A stretch of 64,000 bases of DNA from Chloranthus sessilifolius (lineage: Eukaryota; Streptophyta; Magnoliopsida; Chloranthales; Chloranthaceae): NCBI GenBank assembly GCA_021018995.1, contig CM037585.1, positions 122,354,831 to 122,418,830 of the forward strand. Reading direction: 5' to 3'. A program made the position numbers and the translations under genes. Each line of letters opens with the position of its first letter. Within the stretch, counting starts at the first letter, position 1. Below are positions 1,319 through 40,615 of the stretch, one piece after another. The notes beneath the pieces were generated by a model. It was not told the origin of the DNA. It ran no database searches and saw only the letters and a list, made by a program, of their open reading frames with translations.

Positions 1319-2106
1319 GATTCAGCCCCCTCTTGGCTGTTCTTCTCACTCTTTTTCCACACTTTTTCCTCTATTTTTCTAAACCATTTTCCTATGATTT
1401 AAACCATTTTCAACTACAATCTAACCTCTACAATCTATGCATTTTATTCACAAAAATTTACCTTGAATCAATCTCAAATTGATTTCAAATCAAGTGGTTG
1501 GAAGGCTAGGGTTCCAGCTTTGCTTGAACGGATTCCTTGCGCAGAATCGGCCTCTTTAATACTTGAATCCCCCTTCCAATAACCCACAATGACTCCTTGC
1601 TTTATCACCCTCTTTTCTCCTCTCTCTCTCTTCTTTACTTTTCTCTCAACAACCAAACCATTGATTTTAGGGTTATTAAACCCTTTTATCTCCCCCCTAG
1701 CTTGTGTGTTGAGCACATGCACCTCAATAGGTGTATGTGACTTTAAATTTTCAACACACACCACACAGACACTCAACCCATCACATCTCATCCGTTCATC
1801 ACACCCCATACTAACTATTGGACTTCTATTTGGTCAAACCTATGACCGATCGGGCACGGATCCCGAGGTCATAGTTTAGCGTGATTTTTCGGGCTATTAC
1901 ATAACGTCATGAGTCAAAGTTTGACTTATGCTATAACCTGTGACTGACTTGAGATCAGTTCACTAACCACTCCTTATGATTGATTTGGTTGGTTGGATCA
2001 TTGTTCAAAATATTAGCTTCCTTATGATTGGTTGCTTTCTTATTTTTATGCTTCATTTACATGGTGTGGCATTCATCACTTAGTAGTACGTTATGGCATA
2101 TGTAGG

Positions 2107-3662
2107 TAATCAGTCACATAATTTATCATTTATCACCCTTAACTTAGTGATGTCAGGGTTTAGTTTGCTACTAATAACTTACTGATGTGTATATATTAGG
2201 GATAAACAGTAAAATAGAGCCTAAGTGTTAATATTCATCAAAGTGGACTCAAATTACAGTAAGAATGACGATTGAGCTTATAAGACGATTCGCCATTACA
2301 AGCAAGATGAAAAATCGTACTTAACGATTTTGCGCTACTACTGAAGTGAGAAGAAAGAAATGAGAAATCGTAATTTTACGATTCTTTAAAAAAACGATTC
2401 TTCAGAAGCGACAAAAGAGTAAAAGACGACAAGAGAAGAAAAAACGATCGTTTGTAATAGAAAATCATCCAAAGACCAAGTTTAGTATGAAAGCCCTGAG
2501 AATAGAAAATCGTGATTTACAATTTTCCAAAGAAGCTATAATAGAAGAAGAAATTGTGATTGACGATTTCTCATAATGGAAGCTTTCTACCACTACTGAT
2601 CACGTGAGAATTATCACCACCATGAACAAAATTAGAAGATATCTAGAAGTCTGGTGAATCACAAATCTGAGAAGATTGATGAAGATACACTGTGAAAATC
2701 TTTGATGTCGTTACTAAAGAATAATCCATAAGCATACCTACCGTCTAAAGCAAGGAAGAATAAAATTATGAATTAGAGTTATATTAGGAATCTTTTATTT
2801 TAGTAGTTTCTTTTATTAGAATTAGAAGTCATTGTAAACCGACTCCTTATGATCTATAAATAAGAGAGCTCTGTGTAGGAATAAGCATCGAAGAATTTCA
2901 GCATCAATTGATGCTTGAAGTCGAATTTTCTTCTGATCAAAGTAGTGTAAAATAGTTAGAATATATTAGATATCAAAGGTTTCTCAAGAGCAATTGACGA
3001 CTGCAATTGAGTGCTGAAGATTAGTATAGATATCCTAGTTTCTCAGAAGCAATTGACGACTGCGGCTGAGGGGTGAAAGATATATTTATTTGCTTTCTAG
3101 TTTAGATTTTATTTGCTTTATTTAAAACTTTGTAAACATCTCCAAGTTTTAATTTGAATCGACAACTCAGGTTAGAATTTGCATATTAGTATAACGATTT
3201 TTACTTTTCTATCTTCAGTTTTCTAAGGTTTGATTGACGCCCAGATTTTAGGAAGTTGTTGATTAGATTAAATCTGTATTGATAGGATCATAGATTTAAT
3301 TGATGACCAATACTAAGAAACTAGAGATATAGTATAATGATACTGTTTAAATTTATAAATATCCGATAGCTGAAGATTGGGATTGACGACCTCAATCAGA
3401 AGGAGGGTTTAGATTTATTTTATGCACTTTAGATTAAAAAATCATTCTTTTATTCATATTTCTCTAGTATATTAGATCTTAAAGATAAATAAAAGTTTTT
3501 AAGATAAAGATTTAAGTAGAAGATATAAATAAGAAGTAATTAGATAAATAAACTTTCTTGTGGGAATGATCCTATGCTAGTACTATAATTTCCATTGTGT
3601 GCTTGCAATAGGTTAAGACTTGAATTCAATATAATCATAATATACATAATAAGCAACGATCA
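2107..3662 (+). repeat. 5' LTR of Athila-like element 1
   Basis: It is 1556 bp and pairs with 8227-9750. It contains repeated AATCGT/ACGATT half-sites and short dyads at about 2285-2575, and two related segments containing CAATTGACGACTGC at about 2990 and 3050. Confidence 0.9.
2855..2862 (+). promoter_or_regulatory. LTR TATA box
   Basis: TATAAATA followed by AGAGAGCTC is in the expected place for the U3/R junction of a plant LTR. The same block occurs, reversed, in both LTRs of Athila-like element 2 (about 44500-44520 and 50985-51000). In the 3' LTR of element 1 this stretch is partly deleted (near 8950). Confidence 0.6.
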
Positions 3663-3668
3663 AGTTTT

Positions 3669-3687
3669 TGGTGCTGCTGCAGGGGAA
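3669..3687 (+). other. primer-binding site of Athila-like element 1
   Basis: TGGTGCTGCTGCAGGGGAA lies six bases after the LTR end. It is a decayed version of the TGGCGCCG(T/A)TG(C/T)CGGGGA site typical of Athila elements. The sister element 2 keeps a better copy at 50195-50214 on the minus strand. Confidence 0.75.
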
Positions 3688-3985
3688 GCGGAGTTTATCT
3701 TTATTTCTATTTTTATTTAATATTTCTATCCTTTTAGAAACCAATATTTATCTTTCTCTTTTATATTTCTTTGTATTTTTAATTTTCTTTGATCACTTCT
3801 TAAATCTCTCACAGGTTTATTCGGAGCAGTAAATTAAAAGTTTTCAACTTCTGCCGGCCATGAAATTTCAAAACTCATATTTGTTTCTCTCCATGCTTTC
3901 TAGAATAAAAATCATATAAAACCTAAACTAAAACTAGACATATTGCATTCTAGCCAACCTGCCTCAATTCTAAATCAATATAAAT

Positions 3986-24872: not shown

Positions 24873-24968
24873 GGGAAATTTACCTGACCGACCCTGTCAA
24901 ATGTACCTTTTACTGCAGAGACCCTATAGTTTCACCTTTACCCAAATCGATCCGCTGCGCGCCGAGCC
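24873..24968 (+). repeat. left terminal inverted repeat of the MULE
   Basis: It is 96 bp, from GGGAAATTTACC to GCGCGCCGAGCC, and pairs with 33868-33963 with only a few mismatches. The MULE transposase would bind here. Confidence 0.95.
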
Positions 24969-25930
24969 ATCTTCCGCCTTTAGGAAATACCGGATTTACC
25001 CCCAATGTAATAAATAGCCGCCTTCACCAAACCCTACACACTATTTACCTTTTTACTTTTTTACCTTTTCGTTCGAAGTCGGTGGAGAGGCGGTCGAGAG
25101 TCGCTAGCATTCTGTTCATCAATCTTCAAGCTACCAAACCTGTAAGTAGCTAGTAAATAATTAATTTCTGTTGATTTTTTTTCTTCCTCTTTCGTCGGTC
25201 CACATTTTGTAGTAAATTTTATAAATATCGATTGTATAGACAATCGATAACGATTGTAAACTCAATCGATATCGATTGTCTATACAATCGATATCGTTTT
25301 CGCCAAAATTTACGTTTTCGTCCCAAAGGAACTGAAGAGGATCTGGTTCTAGTGGTGGTGGTGGGTCCTCCCTTACAAGATCGAAATTGATTTTGTTATA
25401 GTAGGTTTTAAGGTGTTTTATCGCCGTCGTTTGACATTGGGAAATGTGGGGGTTGGAAGGGATAATAGGGATGATACATTTGTTGCTGATGGTGGAAAAT
25501 CATTTGTTGGTGATGGTTAGGGATAACAACGAAAGCTATTGCATTTGCATACGATAGCGATTGCATATACAATCGCTATCGATTGCATATACCACCAGAA
25601 CTAGATCATCTTCAGTTCCTTTGGGACAAAAACAATGAAGTAATGAAATTTTTGGCGAAAGAAGAAAAGAATAAGAAGAAAAAAGGAAAAGAAATTGGAC
25701 AATTGTATAGGTTGTCGATTGTTAACGCGATCGACATCGATTGATTCAACAGTCGATGACGATTGTGTACACAATCGATGACGATCGCGTACACAATCGA
25801 TAGCGATTATGTACACAATCGATCACGATTGTTTAGGGAATCGGCGAGTTTTTTTATCTAACCTGATTATACCCTGATTATAAACATTCTCTTTCAATTT
25901 TATTACAGTTCATATACAAAAGCCGGCAAA
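24969..25930. promoter_or_regulatory. upstream region of the ULP-like gene with three dyad arrays
   Basis: Between the left TIR and the ATG lie three arrays of the 22-bp dyad unit: 25226-25300, 25549-25592 and 25708-25841. The rest is AT-rich with no open frame that looks real. A possible acceptor-like TTTTATTACAG ends at about 25909, just before the ATG, so a 5' UTR intron containing the second and third arrays is possible. That is inference. Confidence 0.5.
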
Positions 25931-26722
25931 ATGGTTGTACAATGTGCTGTTGGAAAATGTTCTCCTACTGGCATTTCGAAGATCTACGAAGACGCTAGCC
26001 CGAAGCAGAAGGAGATGCTAAGTGCATCAGTTTTTGGGGGAATATTCCAAATGCCAAAGGGTGTTAGTTTTGCTGGAGATGTTGTCGATGCTATGCTAAG
26101 TTTTTGGGTTGAGAAGAACCACTTCCGAAACCGGAGGAGAGATGTCTATCTTCGAGAGATGGACGTTGCCTTAATTCTGGGCCTTGTAGTCGTTGAACCC
26201 GAAGGGTATTCCCCTTCCATTAAAGCACCTGAAGTGGAAACCATTCGATACAAATATTTTTGGGGACTACCGCCCGGGAAAATTCTGCGGTCTCATATTG
26301 ATAGTGGATTGAGGCTAGCGCAAAGTGATGACGACTTCGTCAAGTTGGCTCTTCTTTTTGTTCTATGTACATTCCTTTTTATCGGGTCCCATCTTCAATT
26401 GTCGGAGGCCCACGTTGAACTTGTCGATGACGTGGAAAGTTTCAAAAAAACCCCATGGGGTCTCTACGTCTTCAAAGACTTGCTAGAGTATATAGAGAAG
26501 GGCGTGGCAAATAGAAAGACAGCCGACAACGATAAAGCCCTTAAGCCATATAATATTTATGGCTGTATGTGTGTACTTCAGTGGTGGGCCTATGAGATGC
26601 TGCCTGAAGTCTCACCTCAACGAACGCCAATGGTAAAACCTTTCCCCCGGTTGTTAAAGTGGGCAGAGAAGCACCAAACGAGGAATAAAAGCTACACTCT
26701 TGCGAAGATGGTCGACAGCAAG

Positions 26723-27136
26723 GTATGATGTCATTTAAACTAATTCAAATATATAAAGGTAAACTTGTAACAACTTTAAAGAGTAATCTGGATGATTCCG
26801 ATTACCAAATCAATCAATATCGATTGCCTACGTAGTCGGAAACGACTGACTACGGAATCGGATCGATTGATTAAGCAATCATTATCGACGGTCTACACAC
26901 TCGGTGGCGACATACTACACAATTGGGATCGACTACCTACACAATCGGTATCGATTACCTACACCATCGGGATCGATTACCTACACAATCGGTATCGATT
27001 ACCTACACAATCGGTATCGATTACCTACACAATCGGTATTGATTACCTACACAATCAAGATCTTTAATTTAGAGTCACTTTTCAATTTCTATAGATTTTT
27101 CTATGTTATTTTACAGCCTGTCCTTTTTTGTAACAG
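26723..27136 (+). other. intron 1 of the ULP-like gene, filled with a dyad array
   Basis: Donor AAG|GTATGATG, acceptor TAACAG|ATTAAC. The 22-bp dyad array spans 26811-27060, with the most regular part at 26930-27055. An open frame across this array is only the translation of the repeat. Confidence 0.85.
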
Positions 27137-27730
27137 ATTAACGCTCCCCTCGAACCCGTTACCTTCGAGTTGGACATACCACTCGTAAGGAATTATCAGC
27201 GGGTTTTAAAGGCTGTTGTTGTGGAAATTGGGGGGAAGAGGAAAGAGGTTGAGGAGGTCAAGAAAGCTGTGGAAGTTGATCTTCGGCCCAAGAAGAAAAG
27301 AAATATTCCGGTCAAAGAAGTTGAAGAGGAAACATTTGAGGACGAAACAACGTCTGACGAAGGCTCTTCCTCAGATGAGGTCCAAGGTCAATTAGACCGG
27401 CCTAAAAGGGTCGCCGCGAAGACAACCAGCAGTACACCATCCTCCACTAATCAAGAGTTGTTGAGGAGGATTGATGGTTTGGAGTTTGATAACATGAAAC
27501 TCAACAAAAAAGCCAGCCATTTGGAAGAGATAGTTAACCAATTGGTAGAGGGGAATAAGCAGCTGGTGGAGGAGAATATGCTCCTCCGGACATAATGCAA
27601 CTCCTTTGAAGAACGGCTCACTTCAAGGGATGTTCAATTGCAAACGGCGGATCACTTCAACAAGTTGATCCGAAAAGAGCAAGGAAAAATTATAGAACTC
27701 CTTCAAACGATAATGGAGGTGACACCCAAG

Positions 27731-28014
27731 GTATGATTGGTAGTGTAGTCTGTTTTAATTCGATTATTTATTTATTTGATTGTTTATCGATTGCATTTAC
27801 AATCGGTAACGATTGCATATACAATCGATCACGATTGAGTATACAATCGATACCGATTGTAAGTGAAGTCGGTACCACTTGTAAATGTAATCGATAAGCG
27901 ATCGGTACTGAATGTAAATACGATCAGTATCGATAGTAATTCTGTTCTCTATTTTTAGAGGTCATTCTGTTCTCTGTTTTTCTTATTTATCAATTTATGT
28001 CTTTCGATGTTCAG
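27731..28014 (+). other. intron 2 of the ULP-like gene with a dyad array
   Basis: Donor CAAG|GTATGA, acceptor TTCAG|GATGG. The array is at 27786-27935. Confidence 0.75.
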
Positions 28015-28567
28015 GATGGTCGGAAGTGTCTCTCTCTACCGATATGGGACCAAAACTTGTTGGCCCTGCTGACCAGAGATCAGCAGATGTGGCACCAGCT
28101 CCTCCCGCCCAAGAGGAGTTGGTAGCAGCTGATAACCAATCCCTTGATGATGATGATAAGGGTGGTCCGGCTGGTGATGAGCAATCCGAGCAACCAATAG
28201 ATGCTCACCTGAGGCCTAGGATTAAAGTCAAACAAATTGCCTCGAAGCCTAGGACAGGGAAAAAGCAGGCAATAAAAAAACCGCCAACCGAGACGATGCC
28301 ACCTCCTACGGTTGAGCTGACAGATGAGCAGAGGTTCATGAATGCCATCTAGACAGCTCCCGAAAAGGATGCCGAGTAAGTTACATATATTACGAATTTG
28401 TCCTTTTTTCTGATGATAGTTAAAATTTAGTTAGTAGTAACTTTCGTTTTGAATTAAAACTTGGCCGTTATGTTTCATGCAGCATCTACGTAAGCTCCGT
28501 GGGTGATTATACACTCCGGATTCATACGTTCAAATGTCTGGAAGGCACGGCATACTTGGACAATCTT

Positions 28568-28953
28568 GTAAGTAACCAAATCTCTCATATTCAATTTCCA
28601 AAGTTATTTTTTTTTCAAGTTTTCTAAAAGTAACGACTGATTAAAAAAAGGGAACGATTGCCCAGACAGTCTAACTCGATTGTTTAGACAATCGATGATG
28701 ATTGTGTACACACTCGATGCTGATTGTCTTAACAGTTGATAACAACTGTCTAGACAGTCGAGAGCGTCTCTCTACGCAATCGGTAGCGATTGTCTGAACA
28801 GTCGATAACGATTGTCTGAACAGTCGATACCGATTATCTAGACAATCGATAGCGATTGTCTGAACAGTCAATACCGATTATCTAGACAATCGTTAACGAT
28901 TGTCTGAACAGTTGATACTGACTTTGCATTTACTGAAATTTGTTTTCTTTCAG
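28568..28953 (+). other. intron 4 of the ULP-like gene with a dyad array
   Basis: Donor CTT|GTAAGT, acceptor TTTCAG|ATCATGG. The array spans about 28653-28918, with units like CAGTCGATAACGATTGTCTG at 22-bp steps. Confidence 0.85.
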
Positions 28954-29467
28954 ATCATGGGAGCCTACCTAAGACTTTTGAAAGTCATGGATGACGCTGC
29001 TCATCCTGAGGTTAGTGATAAATTCTTCCTGATGAGCCCCACCGGTTTGTCATATATCGCCATGGATTATAACGATTTCAGATTCTTTGTTGAAACTGAA
29101 AAACTCAACCAAAAATTGATGGCCACTCAAATTGAACGGTGGGCTGCCCTTAAGGAAGAAACCAACCCAGGCAAGAAGATGCTCCAAAACTTATTCTTCA
29201 ATAGGTTGAGGAATCTGTGGGCTCACCAATGCAACACGGTACATTACGCTCTCTGCAAACTTTGTTTATAATTTTCACCATTGTTTCCTTATATAAGGTA
29301 AATTTCCCTTATATTATTCATTTCAGATATTTGTCTCAGTCCATAGCCACGCTCCTTTGCATTGGGCCCTTGCGATCGTTAAGGTTTTAGAACGATCGGT
29401 AATGATCATTGATCCAATTTTGGATAGGCCTTCGAAGGACAAGTATCCCCTACAAATCAACATCCTG

Positions 29468-29655
29468 GTATGAATGGTCCACACCTTCAAAATTATCTAA
29501 ACAATCGCTAACGATTGATCATACAATCGCTAACGATTGATTATGCCATTATTGTCGATCATTTGGGCAATCGATCACACATATCTCTACATATTTTTTC
29601 TGCTTAAGTAGGTTATCTTATCAAACATTATCTGACATTACACTTTTCAAAACAG
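29468..29655 (+). other. intron 6 of the ULP-like gene with a short dyad array
   Basis: Donor CTG|GTATGA, acceptor AAACAG|ACC. The array at 29498-29573 includes two units of the form CAATCGCTAACGATTG. The short introns 3 (28376-28482) and 5 (29239-29326) have none. Confidence 0.8.
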
Positions 29656-29964
29656 ACCAAATATCTTCCCGTGATTTTACATGTACACGGAGACTCCACT
29701 GCATTGGAAGCTGCGACCTATCCGTGGTCAAGTTCTGATTGCAAGTTCAAATCCGTGCCCCGACAGAGCAATGGTTGGAACTGTGGGGTATTTGTTTTGA
29801 AGTATATAGAGTACTTCATGTTGGGGAAGAAATTTGACTTCAGCCAAGGAAATATGAGTCAGATCAGGGCAGAAATTGGCCAAATCCTCGCTAAATTTAC
29901 TGCTGATGGAGAAGTCGAGAGAGCCATGGATGAAGAACCTACTACTAATGCAGTAGCATCCTAA

Positions 29965-30451
29965 TTTATTTCAAAAGTTAAAATTATATTAACTTCAAGG
30001 ATTATTTGTAAACGAAAATTATAAATTTTAATTGTAATCATATTTTTTTTAATTTATAATATCAAGTATATAAACTTTTTATATGGGCTTGTCGCAGGCT
30101 TTATTAAAGTGTGCTCAAGCAGTCGATAGCATAATCAATCGATATCGATTTTCTAAGTAAGCGATATCGATTATGTAAGCAATCGATATCGATTTCGTAA
30201 GCGATCGATATCGATTTCGTAAGCAATCGATATCGATTGCAAAAGCAATCGATATTGACTGTCTGTGATGAAACGTTTGAAAATTCTTAAGATTACAGAG
30301 CTTGCCTAAAATTCGAAAATCAGGTTGGATACAACCCCAATGAAGTTACAAGTCAAACCCAATTCTCACCAGGGCTATCTATCAACAGCTTCTTTACATT
30401 TTTTGGGGAATTTATATCTAGTAGGAAATTTAGCCGACTTCTTGTACTGTG
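29965..30451. other. intergenic gap between the convergent MULE genes
   Basis: An AT-rich 3' flank of the ULP-like gene is followed by the dyad array at 30117-30266. Both genes would end their transcripts here. No terminator-like signal beyond AT-rich sequence is evident. Confidence 0.6.
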
Positions 30452-33188
30452 TCAACCCATAGGACCAATTGCCGTGCAACTCCGGCGATTGTGACCATAC
30501 TCATTGCACCTGCCACACTGTATGGCCCTAACTTCACCCTTAGACCTTATCCTTCTCTTTCTCGGACGGCCGGCTTGCTTTTGACAATTGTAGGGTGGTC
30601 TTACTTTCATATTTTTTGACAGTTGCTTAGCTTGGAATGCCCATTGGCTTTTATCGAGGGTGGGAAGCCATTGTTCGTCGTATGTTTGTCTAAAGCAAGC
30701 AGTGAAAAACCACTTCTCACAGAAGTTATGGTAATCGTAACTTCTCCGATTGATAGCTGTCATGGCATGAGAGCAAGGCAAGCCATGAATAAGCCAACGA
30801 CATCAAGTACAGGTCATGTGTTCTAAGTCGACGTGATGAATGAAATTTCCAGAATTGACCTGAAATTGATCGCGCCCGTATGGCTGAGCTCTCTTCCTAC
30901 CGGCCCATTGTAATACCTTCTTCATATGTTCGTCTGCTTTTGGACAGAGTATGGTGGTCCATTTCTTAGATATCTTTCTGCGCTTTTGAAAATGATCGGC
31001 GACTTTCTCTCTAGTAGTTCTGATTAGGTCGATAATGAATCTCTCTCGGGCTATCTTTAGTACGCTATTTAAGCTTTCGGCATTATTCATAGTTAGAGAA
31101 TCATATTGCCTTCCTTTCATATGTGCGCGTGCCCAATGCTTTGGGTCTATTTTCAAAATATACTCTACGGCCTGAGGATCAGCACGATCTTCCTTCATTT
31201 TGTTAATAAAATAATCAAATTTCTCTACTGAATATGCACGTGCGGCGCACCACCATAAACCCTTCACATTATTCTTGGGATACTTCCGCCTTAATTTTGT
31301 GTCATATGTCACATGCAATAGTTGTGGTGTGTGTCACGAACGCACCTACTCGTTCAAGAAACCACATCCAGGTATCCTCTTCTTCTAATTCGACGACGGT
31401 AAATGCTAACGGTAATATATAGCCATTACAGTCTTACCCCGAGGCAATAAGTAGGATCCCTTTGTAACGTCCCCGTAGGTGTGTGCCATCTACAAGCAGT
31501 GTGTGACGAAGTGTACTACGGTAGCTTCCGATGCAGGGGCCGAAACTCTAAAAAAATCTTTGAAATTTACCGTCAAGCGTTAGTTGAAAGGATGTTCGTA
31601 CATTAGGATCTACCCTCTCCATCTCTTTCACGTAGGCTGGTAGATCCACAAATTGTCGTTCTCAACTGCCTCTAATATCATTAAGGGCAATTTCTTTCCC
31701 CCTCCAACCCTTAGCATATAAGATTTGCACATTATAAGCTTTTACAATATCAAATATTATCGATGCCGGAGTATAGTCGAATCCTTTCATAAGTTTCTCT
31801 CGTACATAATTGGCTACGAACGAGATTGTTGCATTACGGTGATCGTGCGGTCCGATCTTAGCGGCCCCGCATGTGTAAGTACTATTAAACGTCTTAATTT
31901 GGAAAGTGTCGAGCCCATTTAATTTAGATGCATGTATTCACCATGAACAACCGGTTTCGTAGCATGCGGCTGTCACTTGATAATTAGCAATTTTCAAAGG
32001 CCGAATTTGAAATTTTTTCTCCACCGCGTGCTCTTTCAATGCTCTTTGAAATGTTTATTTATCTCTGAAGATCTCTCCAACTTCAAAAGTCCAATTCCGA
32101 TATTCGGTTTTCACCTCTTGATCAGAAGACTCGTCCGATGTCTCTGAAATTTCGTAAGCTCCATCTACTAATGGATTATCAATGCCCCTCGTAAAATATT
32201 TCGAATCCTCTTTTATAAACCCATCCGGTTCATCATCATAATCTTCGATGTTCTCTTCACCAACAGTGTTTTGAGGTGGTTCACTAGATCCTTCTTTACC
32301 GAAGGGGTTCTGATGTGGTTGACTAGGCCCTTCACGGAACAGGTCATGACATGGCTGACTAAGCCCTCCACCGAACGAGTTCTGACATGGTTGACTAGTC
32401 CCTTCACCGAAGGGGTGATTATATGTATGAAAATAGGGTTGAGCTCCTTCATTAATCCCCATAGATGGCATAGTAGAACATACTTTGTGAGTCATCCAAG
32501 TTGTGAATCCACCGGGAAAGATATGATGAAAATCGTCTTCATCCCCAACTCTTAGAGACGTGTAGTCTAACTCTTGACTACAATGTGCCCCATGCATATT
32601 TTGTAGTGGGTCATCATATGATTCAACTGGGGCATGATTTAAATAAATAGTTGTCTTCATGGCGGATATGTTTGCTGTGAAATCGCCGTCATCACCTAAC
32701 TGAATAGTATCATATGTAAGTCCTTCCTCCTCAAACTTATATGGCTGGAAGGAATGGTTACTCACAAAATCAGTCCCACCTAGAGGTACATGTTCAGCTT
32801 CGAATCGGAAGGAGGATGGTTCTTTAATGATGAATACCTTTATAATGTCCGACCCGAATTTATAAAACGAAAATAGGGTGGCCAAATCATTCGAATCCAA
32901 TACGTCGGCAAGCACAAGGGTGTTCACTATCTTCATAGAGAACTTTATGGAAATTGTTTCATCTTCTCTCGCAAAACTGGCAACAGAAATTCGCCTTCTG
33001 AACCGTTCATAAGATATACCCATTGAAATTATAATAATCCTCCGGCGGCCACCTTGATACAAACCACCATCGTTTACAATATGGCCATCAAAGTGACAGA
33101 GAAGAGGAATTTTCACACAAGACATCGCCACTTTAAGAAGGAGAAGAAAGGAGTCATAAGACGGATGAATATGATAAATTGGTAGCAA
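30452..33188 (-). pseudogene. MuDR-type MULE transposase, inactivated
   Basis: Read on the minus strand. The first 377 residues (33188-32055) begin with a PB1-like segment (LLCHFDGHIVND) and an acidic, repeat-bearing linker. A TAA at about 32055 interrupts FRDK and TFQRALKEHAV, the usual MuDR N-terminal domain. Then come the transposase core (VDGTHLRGRYKGILLIAS and TWMWFLERV), a SWIM finger (GLPCSHAMTAI, about 30785) and a C-terminal CX2CX4HX4C knuckle (CGRCNEYGHNRRSC, about 30500) that is intact. Between WFLERV and YDTKLRRKYPKN the block that carries the second catalytic Asp and the HxxCxRH motif in relatives is missing. Several stops (TAA, TGA, TAG) and frame changes add to this. The protein would cut and rejoin the TIRs; this copy cannot. 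Confidence 0.88.
32270..32420. repeat. about 30-39-bp repeats in the transposase linker
   Basis: Five near-repeats of a segment coding for (F)GEG.SQPCQN-type residues run across 32270-32420: FGEGTSQPCQNS, FGGGLSQPCHDL, FREGPSQPHQNP, FGKEGSSEPPQN. This is an in-frame coding minisatellite in the acidic linker of the transposase. Confidence 0.8.
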
Positions 33189-33867
33189 AATAACTGATAT
33201 CTAATCATTACCGATTGAGTATCCAATCGCTACCGATTGAATATACAATCGCTACCGATTGCTTATCCAATCGCTATCGATTGAGTATCCAATCGCTACC
33301 AATTGAGTATCCAATCGTTACCGATTGAGTATCCAATCGTTACTGATTGAGTATCCAATCGTTACCGATTGAGTTACCAATCGGGTCCAATTTCAAATAA
33401 ATGCATGAGCTGGTCGATTGGATATCCAATCGATATCGATTGTTTATGAAGTCGGTGACGATTGGATAAGCAATCGGTAATGATTGGTAACTCAATCGGT
33501 AGCGATTGGATAATCAATCGAAGCATAACTTACAATCGACCAGCTCCTGCATTTATTTACAATCGATATCTATTCACCTTTTCCAAAAGTTATTTCGATA
33601 TGGTTTACACTGGATCTGAACATACCTAGCGTCGGAATGGGAAACTGCAGGATCTTCAACTCCGAATGACAAAATACAGGAGCTTCTTCTCCCAAACCTC
33701 TGTTTTCTTCTTCTAGTTAGCAGATCTGAGGCAGAAGACGTCGTCACCTTCACCACCTCTAACTTCTTGTAACTTTAGCGCAGATTGAAATGAGAAAAAG
33801 GGAATGTATTTGGGTTAAAGAAAGTCAGAGAAGGGGGTAATATGGACTTTTTATTCTCCCTATGGTC

Positions 33868-33963
33868 GGCTCGGCGCGCAGTGGGTCGATTTGGGTAAAG
33901 GTGAAACTATAGGGTCTCTGCAGTAAAAGGTACATCTGACAGGGTCGATCAGGTAAATTTCCC
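33868..33963 (-). repeat. right terminal inverted repeat of the MULE
   Basis: Reverse complement of 24873-24968. It ends AAATTTCCC at 33963, followed by the degenerate 9-bp duplication TTGTATGAT. Confidence 0.95.
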
Positions 33964-40329: not shown

Positions 40330-40615
40330 TTGACCCATCTAAAGTTGGGCCTTGACTCCCATTTGATGTCGGATTGTAACTCATCTGATGTCAGACTGTG
40401 ACTCATCTAATGTCGAACCGTGACCCATTTGATATTGGACCATGACTCATCCGATGTTAGACTTTGATCCATCCGATGTAGAATCGTGGCTCATCTGATG
40501 TTGGCCTTTGACCCATTTAATGTTGGACCGTGACCCATCCAATATTGAATCTTAACCCATCTAATATCGAACCGTGACCCATCTGATGTTGGACTTTGAT
40601 CCATTTAATTTGAAA
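40330..40615. repeat. 22-bp minisatellite in the LTR of element B
   Basis: About twelve degenerate copies of GACCCATCTGATGTTGGACC plus two bases run at a 22-bp period. The unit is unrelated in sequence to the dyad arrays of the MULE although the period is the same. Confidence 0.88.

Follow-up and report, generated by a model that had tools for sequence, protein, structure and literature searches.

A window of 64,000 nucleotides of the Chloranthus sessilifolius genome (the whole stretch of DNA analysed here, from contig CM037585.1) contains a Mutator-like element (MULE) of 9091 bp that is bounded by a pair of 96-bp terminal inverted repeats (TIRs) and carries, besides its transposase gene on the minus strand, an oppositely oriented gene that joins a DUF1985 region to a Ulp1 protease region on the plus strand (Table 1). 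The interval of 25226 to 33565 that an earlier reading of the letters alone (the sequence-only reading) had given is too small for this element. Tandem arrays of a 22-bp dyad unit occupy its non-coding DNA, and their structure, their distribution among related elements, and the protein that may bind them are described below.

A 22-bp dyad unit in the non-coding DNA of the element

The unit has the form CAATCG-NTAN-CGATTG-NNTANN, in which two inverted half-sites enclose one TA step and the spacer holds another. When a dyad is defined as a CAATCG-N4-CGATTG match with at least 10 of the 12 half-site bases, the window holds 49 dyads, 48 of them inside the element; all 48 lie in its 3.66 kb of non-coding DNA, none lies in its 5.24 kb of coding DNA, and a single one is found in the other 54.9 kb. 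A chance origin is ruled out by dinucleotide shuffles of the non-coding compartments, which gave a mean of 0.25 dyads and a maximum of 2 in 300 trials. The sequence-only reading had placed nine arrays in all the larger non-coding compartments of a MULE that carries a ULP gene. The counts agree with this, as three arrays lie upstream, one in each of introns 1, 2, 4 and 6, one in the gap between the genes and one on the right side, and they become ten if the last is split near position 33400. Equally correct was its statement that no array lies in an exon or in the two introns of about 100 bp, as introns 3 (107 bp) and 5 (87 bp) of the window copy contain no unit.

The 22-bp step that had been noticed is borne out by the identity within arrays, which is 0.65 at a lag of 22 as against 0.20 at lags of 21 and 23, and exact half-sites stand 10 and 12 bp apart when their orientation alternates and 22 bp apart when it is the same. 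Of the proposed unit, the half-sites stand and the ATA-like centre does not: NTAN describes it correctly, and the spacer holds another TA 11 bp away, these two steps, at offsets 8 and 19, being present in 40 and 37 of 54 window units, respectively. The two-fold axes therefore follow one another like the rungs of a ladder, roughly one for each helical turn. Units are also alike within an array and different between arrays, as had been claimed, because among the 54 units with at least 9 of the 12 half-site bases used in this comparison, likeness at the variable bases is 0.649 within arrays and 0.442 between them, a difference reached in 0 of 1000 permutations. Each array thus has its own dialect. 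The ratio of observed to expected CpG is 2.08 in the arrays and 0.82 in the remaining non-coding DNA, and no inference is drawn from the array value because the motif itself contains CG.

Several other repeats lie near the arrays or resemble them. A 43-bp inverted repeat (91%; 25314-25356 and 25591-25633) borders arrays 1 and 2 and looks as though flanks of the arrays had been duplicated in the opposite orientation, and array 9b is framed by an inverted repeat read by eye at 33395-33420 and 33536-33559 (BLAST gives a reversed self-match over 33395-33558). Outside the element, the window has a 22-bp tandem array of an unrelated unit, TTGACCCATCTGATGTTGGACC, in 12.4 copies at 40330-40604. At 845-1312 it has 18 copies of the palindrome TCGATTAATCGA (at least 10 of 12 bases), mostly 19-22 bp apart, which sit in a separate repeat (1-1901) and form another dyad array.

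Table 1. The element, its arrays and its genes, in coordinates of the window
Feature	Position	Strand	Remarks
Whole TIR-MULE	24873..33963		TIR pair; flanks CTATATGAT / TTGTATGAT, 7/9 bases alike
Left TIR, 96 bp	24873..24968	+	92/96 identical to right TIR
Array 1, upstream	25219..25306		
Array 2, upstream	25526..25591		
Array 3, upstream	25706..25859		
VANC-like gene exon 1, DUF1985 / plant mobile domain region	25931..26722	+	Pfam
Array 4, intron 1	26811..27073		dialect GTAT/CCTACA
VANC-like gene exon 2, acidic and coiled-coil-like linker	27137..27730	+	in-frame TAA at 27593
Array 5, intron 2	27778..27887		
VANC-like gene exon 3, linker	28015..28374	+	in-frame TAG at 28350; present in L069-L072
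VANC-like gene exon 4	28482..28567	+	93-98% identical in L069-L072
Array 6, intron 4	28645..28930		13 units including weak ones; 44- and 66-bp higher order
VANC-like gene exon 5	28954..29239	+	splice signals, other copies
VANC-like gene exon 6, Ulp1 catalytic region	29327..29467	+	HW and D by eye
Array 7, intron 6	29502..29589		
VANC-like gene exon 7, Ulp1 catalytic Q...NCG (by eye) and stop	29655..29964	+	Peptidase_C48
Array 8, between the two genes	30114..30267		dialect ATAT
Transposase gene: DBD_Tnp_Mut, MULE, weak SWIM	30452..33125	-	Pfam; stops and frameshift
Array 9a, right non-coding region	33202..33399		
Array 9b, right non-coding region	33427..33581		
Right TIR, 96 bp	33868..33963	-	paired with left TIR

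The borders of the seven exons of the DUF1985-Ulp1 gene were placed by splice signals and by similarity, and the phase that joins exon 2 to exon 3 is provisional. Exon 1 matches two Pfam models, each short of its gathering score, namely DUF1985 (26.0 bits, expectation value (E) 1e-5) and plant mobile domain (27.8 bits, E 1.8e-6). A protein database search with this exon gave 422 candidates and none at E 0.001, its best match among solved structures reached only E 0.51, and a structure predicted from the single sequence, with a pLDDT of 37.8, gave no usable model. Exons 5-7, when joined, match Peptidase_C48 at E 1.2e-13 (E 8.1e-8 for the portion 29620-29961 alone), and the catalytic H, D, Q and C of Ulp1 are apparently present in them when read by eye. 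With stops read as X, the product of the opposing gene matches DBD_Tnp_Mut (3.1e-12) and MULE (6.3e-9) over the Pfam cut-off and SWIM (0.0068) below it, so that the element encodes a MULE transposase with a MuDR-type DNA-binding domain. Two in-frame stops interrupt the DUF1985-Ulp1 gene of the window copy, and the transposase gene has five in its first frame, one internal stop in its second, and a frameshift near 31302-31333; a 36-bp tandem repeat at 32294-32411, in the N-terminal coding region of the transposase, gives repeats of a 12-residue peptide. A viral contig scan and an Rfam search at gathering scores returned no matches.

Copies and relatives in the same genome

The sequence-only reading had allowed that the unit might prove to be an abundant satellite unrelated to the MULE, or that arrays might be absent from all other copies, and neither was found. 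An exact search for one unit plus the next half-site on both strands of the plant's own genome (2.17 Gb, 32 contigs) gave 2238 matches, some of them overlapping, and the reversed control pattern gave none. Loci were cut for the first 30 of these 2238 matches only, all on contig 1, which correspond to 10 places and 8 elements; all 10 places match this MULE group in a TIR or in coding sequence (one through the overlapping locus L008), so that in this sample a satellite independent of the MULE is unsupported. A pattern with a 3-base centre had given eight loci, five of which are copies of the window MULE; the other three (L002, L003 and L007) have no array, L007 having one unit, and are treated as chance. 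The left TIR gave 1897 first-look candidates in the genome, of which the best 40 were scored, all at least 97% identical. Thirty TIR loci were cut, one being the window's own, and arrays are present in 29 of the 29 others (27 elements), which are the closest TIR matches and uninformative on more distant TIRs.

Four further full-length copies (L069-L072, of which L069, L070 and L072 are also among these 27 elements) have a perfect 9-bp target-site duplication, as against 7 of 9 bases in the window copy. These four carry arrays in the same seven compartments as the window copy, and the five full copies together hold 246 units. In every copy each of the seven (the 5' region, introns 1, 2, 4 and 6, the gap between the genes and the right side) is occupied, and exons, the transposase gene and introns 3 and 5 are free of units. 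Numbers vary from copy to copy, from 3 to 7 units in intron 1, 3 to 9 in intron 2, 2 to 8 in intron 6 and 3 to 14 on the right side, which is the richest compartment in three of the five copies (14 units in the window, 12 in L070 and 13 in L072). Dialects follow the compartment rather than the copy, with a likeness of 0.602 for the same compartment across copies vs 0.451 for different compartments of one copy; likeness within the same compartment is 0.459 for the right side and 0.521 for the 5' region, and rises to 0.709 for intron 1. Since compartment dialects are common to the five copies, seeding and dialects predate the window insertion. The earlier suggestion of local expansion after seeding thus holds for the dialects and the variable counts, with the seeding itself placed before this insertion; most arrays were probably seeded before the five copies parted, and then grew or shrank.

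Constraint on the unit and on the protein can be gauged in part from the same copies. The TA steps, which played no part in unit finding, are kept, their T, A, T and A being present in 220, 202, 192 and 176 of the 246 units, respectively, whereas at the other six free positions the commonest base is found in only 80 to 135. Of the steps of up to 120 bp, 195 of 219 in six elements and 188 of 207 in the 29 TIR loci are multiples of 22, the two sets having some elements in common. For three gene segments of the five copies, 29 of 30 comparisons give a ratio of nonsynonymous to synonymous substitution (dN/dS) below 1 (0.24-0.72), and one, in the linker, gives 1.17, as calculated by the Nei-Gojobori method in the window frame, with gap or stop codons dropped and with pairs that are not independent.

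A more distant element, L073, has TIRs 83-86% identical to those of the window, a DUF1985 exon 35-38% identical in amino acids, other exons at 30-62% (31% for exon 5, 62% for exon 6, 41% for exon 7) and transposase pieces at 27-57%; no counterpart of exon 3 was found in it. Its gene order is that of the window element. It holds 25 units with the CAATCG half-site; they occupy introns 1 and 4, the gap between the genes and the right side, apart from single ones in other places, and intron 6 has none that reaches threshold. With the arrays masked, alignment to L073 at E 0.001 fails for every intron and intergenic stretch of the window element and succeeds for parts of the 5' and right regions, in a test of limited power, as the intron remnants are short; arrays themselves can cross-match any array. 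The comparison shows persistence of the motif in these sequences, not strict orthology. L073 also has a 230-bp tandem duplication, at 330-765 of the locus, that includes array units and flank, a multiplication of arrays on a larger scale.

Arrays are likewise found in elements without genes. L013 (682-2684) and L049 (1834-2610, 777 bp) are each bounded by a pair of TIRs (77-87% identical) and contain arrays, and neither has a match to either MULE gene; an A-rich 9-bp direct repeat of uncertain register lies at the ends of L013, and L049 has no target-site duplication. Both look like non-autonomous derivatives that have retained TIRs and arrays. The CAGTCG half-sites of the 777-bp element are a separate dialect.

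The Pfam DUF1985 model gave 4046 first-look candidates in this genome, 150 of which were scored, all over the cut-off, and had no match in 14 control genomes. Six of these loci (L074-L079) were inspected over 4.9 kb each, and exon 1 of the window aligns with open reading frames at all six, 24-38% identical. The six are not independent, since the DNA of L074, L075 and L079 is 90-94% alike and L076, L077 and L078 have stretches 77-83% alike (77-80% in nucleotides for L076 and L077). L076 and L077 match exons 6 and 7 of the window as well as exon 1 (37-38% identical in alignment A1), and the 22-bp unit in their arrays is another one, GGGCGTCANNGCTTTGANAATN (17 aligned units), an imperfect dyad of the form GTCA-NN-GC-NN-TGAC, which lies in intron 6 of L076 (9.7 copies) and in intron 6 and after exon 7 of L077. 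The consensus of the 17 units keeps the 22-bp pitch without TA steps. Its core occurs at 12 places in the 64-kb window (at least 10 of 12 bases, either strand) and singly in other loci, and in 22-bp rows, among the loci inspected, only at L076 and L077. On motif change between related families these loci point both ways, as the two that differ from the window are mutually related and L073, at a similar protein distance, shares the window's motif, and a 22-bp pitch kept with another unit in one related locus pair is a lead, not a law.

Other repeats at these loci were set apart. L078 has two isolated CAATCG dyads. The TCGATTAATCGA-like arrays at L078 and L079 were rejected as DUF1985-linked motifs because they are part of the separate repeat also found at one end of the window, which in L079 is an insertion at 1385-3947 relative to L074. 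Just past the exon 1 match of L077 lies a 42-bp tandem repeat (1198-1349, 3.1-3.6 copies), which may be an array of intron 1 built from still another unit.

A possible anti-silencing role and its alternatives

Element-encoded proteins that act through arrays of this kind are known from Arabidopsis. VANC21 binds the motif YAGTATTAY, which is arrayed in VANDAL21 within introns, between genes and at the termini, and methylation is lost across the element when VANC21 is expressed; VANC6 acts likewise through another motif, and the motif arrays turn over fast by tandem repeat change (PMC5735166). Intron-seeded arrays, of which the sequence-only reading knew no description, are therefore on record, as tandemly repeated VANC motifs in VANDAL introns (PMC5735166). 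Further papers add that RNA-directed DNA methylation targets the same non-coding regions of VANDAL elements (PMC10398659), that KIU genes are Ulp1-carrying VANC genes reported to recognise non-coding motifs of their own group, with Ulp1 capture dated to the monocot-eudicot separation (PMC13317346), that ULP sequences occur in TIR-MULEs of grapevine (in both orientations) and melon (PMC2528002), that some VANDAL-clade elements of other Brassicaceae have TIRs (PMC6446971), and that a VANC21 crystal structure was mentioned as unpublished in 2022 (PMC8756742). The known motifs themselves are absent, as neither the VANC21 motif nor the VANC6 motif (AGTTGTCC/AGTTGTAC) occurs in the element. In a 2022 EMBO J paper, DUF1985, DUF287 and Ulp1 are said to have been gained and lost, and motif density and helical periodicity reportedly play a role.

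Against this background, it is probable (at roughly 0.64) that the arrays are platforms on which the element's own DUF1985-Ulp1 protein docks, a protein that would be a VANC-like anti-silencing factor. Like VANC21/VANDAL21 (Hiun) and VANC6/VANDAL6, the window MULE has a DUF1985 protein gene beside its transposase gene and dense tandem arrays of a short motif in introns, intergenic and terminal non-coding DNA, not in exons, with array numbers that vary between copies and, perhaps, a motif that differs between related families (PMC5735166). This reading is favoured because the layout of the arrays matches that of VANC21 (PMC5735166) and because a DUF1985 region, albeit a weak match, and Peptidase_C48 share one gene, as in KIU genes (PMC13317346). 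It is further favoured by the placement of the 246 units in the five full copies, the arrays at all 29 other TIR loci, the kept TA steps and 22-bp multiples, the arrays retained in L073 and in gene-less elements, the other 22-bp unit of L076 and L077, and the dN/dS values below 1. With KAONASHI and its KIU gene the element has in common a VANC-type protein with Ulp1 in reverse orientation to mudrA (PMC13317346, PMC2528002), and with the grapevine and melon elements a ULP sequence in a TIR-MULE, although section 10 and the passages searched in that account mention no tandem arrays, and its main text does not contain the word 'tandem' (PMC2528002). Differences exist as well, in that KI-MULEs are non-TIR elements and this one has 96-bp TIRs, and in that VANDAL21 and VANDAL6 have VANA, VANB and VANC while two genes were found here. 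No description of the 22-bp unit turned up in the literature searched, most subscription papers being outside its coverage; the logic is already known from VANC, and what differs is the geometry and the TIR-MULE setting.

In such a system, the DUF1985-Ulp1 protein, probably as a dimer or oligomer, would read alternating inverted CAATCG half-sites about one helical turn apart, and the many in-register units on every larger non-coding stretch would give a high local density of protein across the element. The bound protein would remove or block host silencing marks, making both genes expressible and the TIRs usable, and would act in cis and also in trans on gene-less relatives. Exons would lack arrays because they are required for coding, introns 3 and 5 are perhaps too short for them, and slippage or unequal exchange would renew each array locally and so produce its own dialect. 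A role for the Ulp1 protease is possible, for example in removing SUMO from silencing factors. The sequence-only reading had suggested that a protein binds the symmetric site in register, which finds indirect support in the half-sites and TA steps that are held while the bases between them drift, in the 22-bp pitch of the window family, L073 and L076/L077, and in the arrays that persist in L073. Of the binders that it had proposed, namely transposase, host repressor and silencing factor, none is as good a candidate as the element's own DUF1985-Ulp1 protein, because Arabidopsis VANC proteins with these domains act so (PMC5735166, PMC13317346). Anatomy, shared placement, pitch, conserved and free positions, persistence in L073, the L076/L077 unit and dN/dS below 1 can be read off the sequences, and binding, demethylation, trans action and any part of the protease are carried over by analogy with VANC.

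A number of observations weigh against a VANC-like role. The DUF1985 match of the window falls short of the 35.1-bit Pfam cut-off, the window is not among the 150 scored DUF1985 matches of the 4046 candidates, and DUF287, a domain named for VANC proteins, was not detected at E 0.1 in the parts scanned, which were exon 1, exon 2 to 27595, exon 5, exon 7 and joined exons 5-7. VANDALs have been described with degenerate TIRs or none, whereas the TIRs of this element are intact over 96 bp, which is no bar to its being of the VANC kind because some Brassicaceae elements of the VANDAL clade have TIRs (PMC6446971). Arabidopsis VANC motifs stand in one orientation, unlike the half-sites of the window, which alternate at 10 and 12 bp. 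The window family and L073, 31-62% alike by exon, share a motif, which is a slower turnover than that reported for VANC targets, and L074, L075 and L078 have no array of either unit in the 4.9 kb inspected. In the L049 element the CAGTCG dyads follow one another at steps of 27, 24, 24, 24 and 22, so that the 22-bp pitch is not kept, and this loose step, with the kinship of L076-L078, weakens both the VANC-like reading and the more specific one set out next. Lastly, stops interrupt both window genes, all five full copies have stops in DUF1985-Ulp1 exons, at different places (counts being inflated downstream of a frameshift), and an intact source copy is not among the five; the dN/dS values and the scattered stops would fit decay after insertion of copies from a selected source.

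The more specific reading takes the protein to polymerise and to represent a distinct VANC branch housed in TIR-MULEs, with axes 11 bp apart and half-sites alternating, a SUMO protease directed against SUMO-dependent silencing, and a pitch that is set by protein geometry and outlives a change of half-site; it is possible, though doubtful. That the arrays instead bind the element's MURA-like transposase, for synapsis or autoregulation, as subterminal repeats do in CACTA/Spm, is unlikely. The transposase does have a DBD_Tnp_Mut domain, and the TIR-adjacent right side is the richest compartment in the three copies named above, but not in L069 and L071, and arrays occur throughout the introns and the intergenic gap, in mid-element and with no obvious synaptic use; L076 and L077 have another unit at DUF1985-Ulp1 introns. 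In CACTA/Spm, which belongs to another superfamily than the MULEs, TnpA binds repeats that are known from subterminal positions only. TnpA also activates Spm, in correlation with demethylation (PMC10398659), which can be counted for the transposase and is equally a likeness to the VANC-like reading, where an element-encoded protein activates its own element.

Binding by a host protein, either a transcription factor exploited as an enhancer or a silencing or insulator factor, would explain why two diverged relatives in one genome have a motif in common, as a fixed host protein predicts. Dyads of 6-bp half-sites also resemble the sites of dimeric factors. Such binding is nonetheless rather improbable, as the 22-bp pitch is combined with another unit at two further DUF1985-Ulp1 loci of this genome, and both the layout and the gene partner have their match in the VANC system. 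If the arrays had no binding function and arose by neutral slippage during replication of non-coding DNA, unit numbers that vary between copies and local dialects would be accounted for, but this is very unlikely: the half-site, which was the finding criterion, and the TA steps, which were not, recur in all compartments while their neighbours drift, arrays are present in all 29 TIR loci and are kept in gene-less elements, and the arrays of L073 persist where its introns otherwise fail to align, which neutral repeats would probably not have survived. Least probable is a purely mechanical effect, in which TA every 11 bp would position or exclude nucleosomes and keep chromatin open without a dedicated protein; the spacing of the TA steps suits it, but CAATCG half-sites recur too, needlessly for a structural signal, and the L076/L077 consensus keeps the pitch without the TA steps.

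Implications for Ulp1-carrying MULEs

The ladder offers a precise and testable geometry, consisting of a 22-bp pitch, inverted half-sites and a TA every 11 bp, and there are probably hundreds of copies for comparison, judging from the 1897 TIR candidates, taken unscored, and the 2238 array matches. L073, with the same unit, and L076 and L077, with another, make up a natural series in which co-change of protein and target can be followed. If the VANC-like reading is correct, epigenome editing may gain a new target specificity from the arrays, and DUF1985 proteins would provide sequence-specific anti-silencing for Ulp1-carrying TIR-MULEs too, in another plant genome. Gene-less elements that have kept TIRs and arrays would then be parasites of the anti-silencing system.

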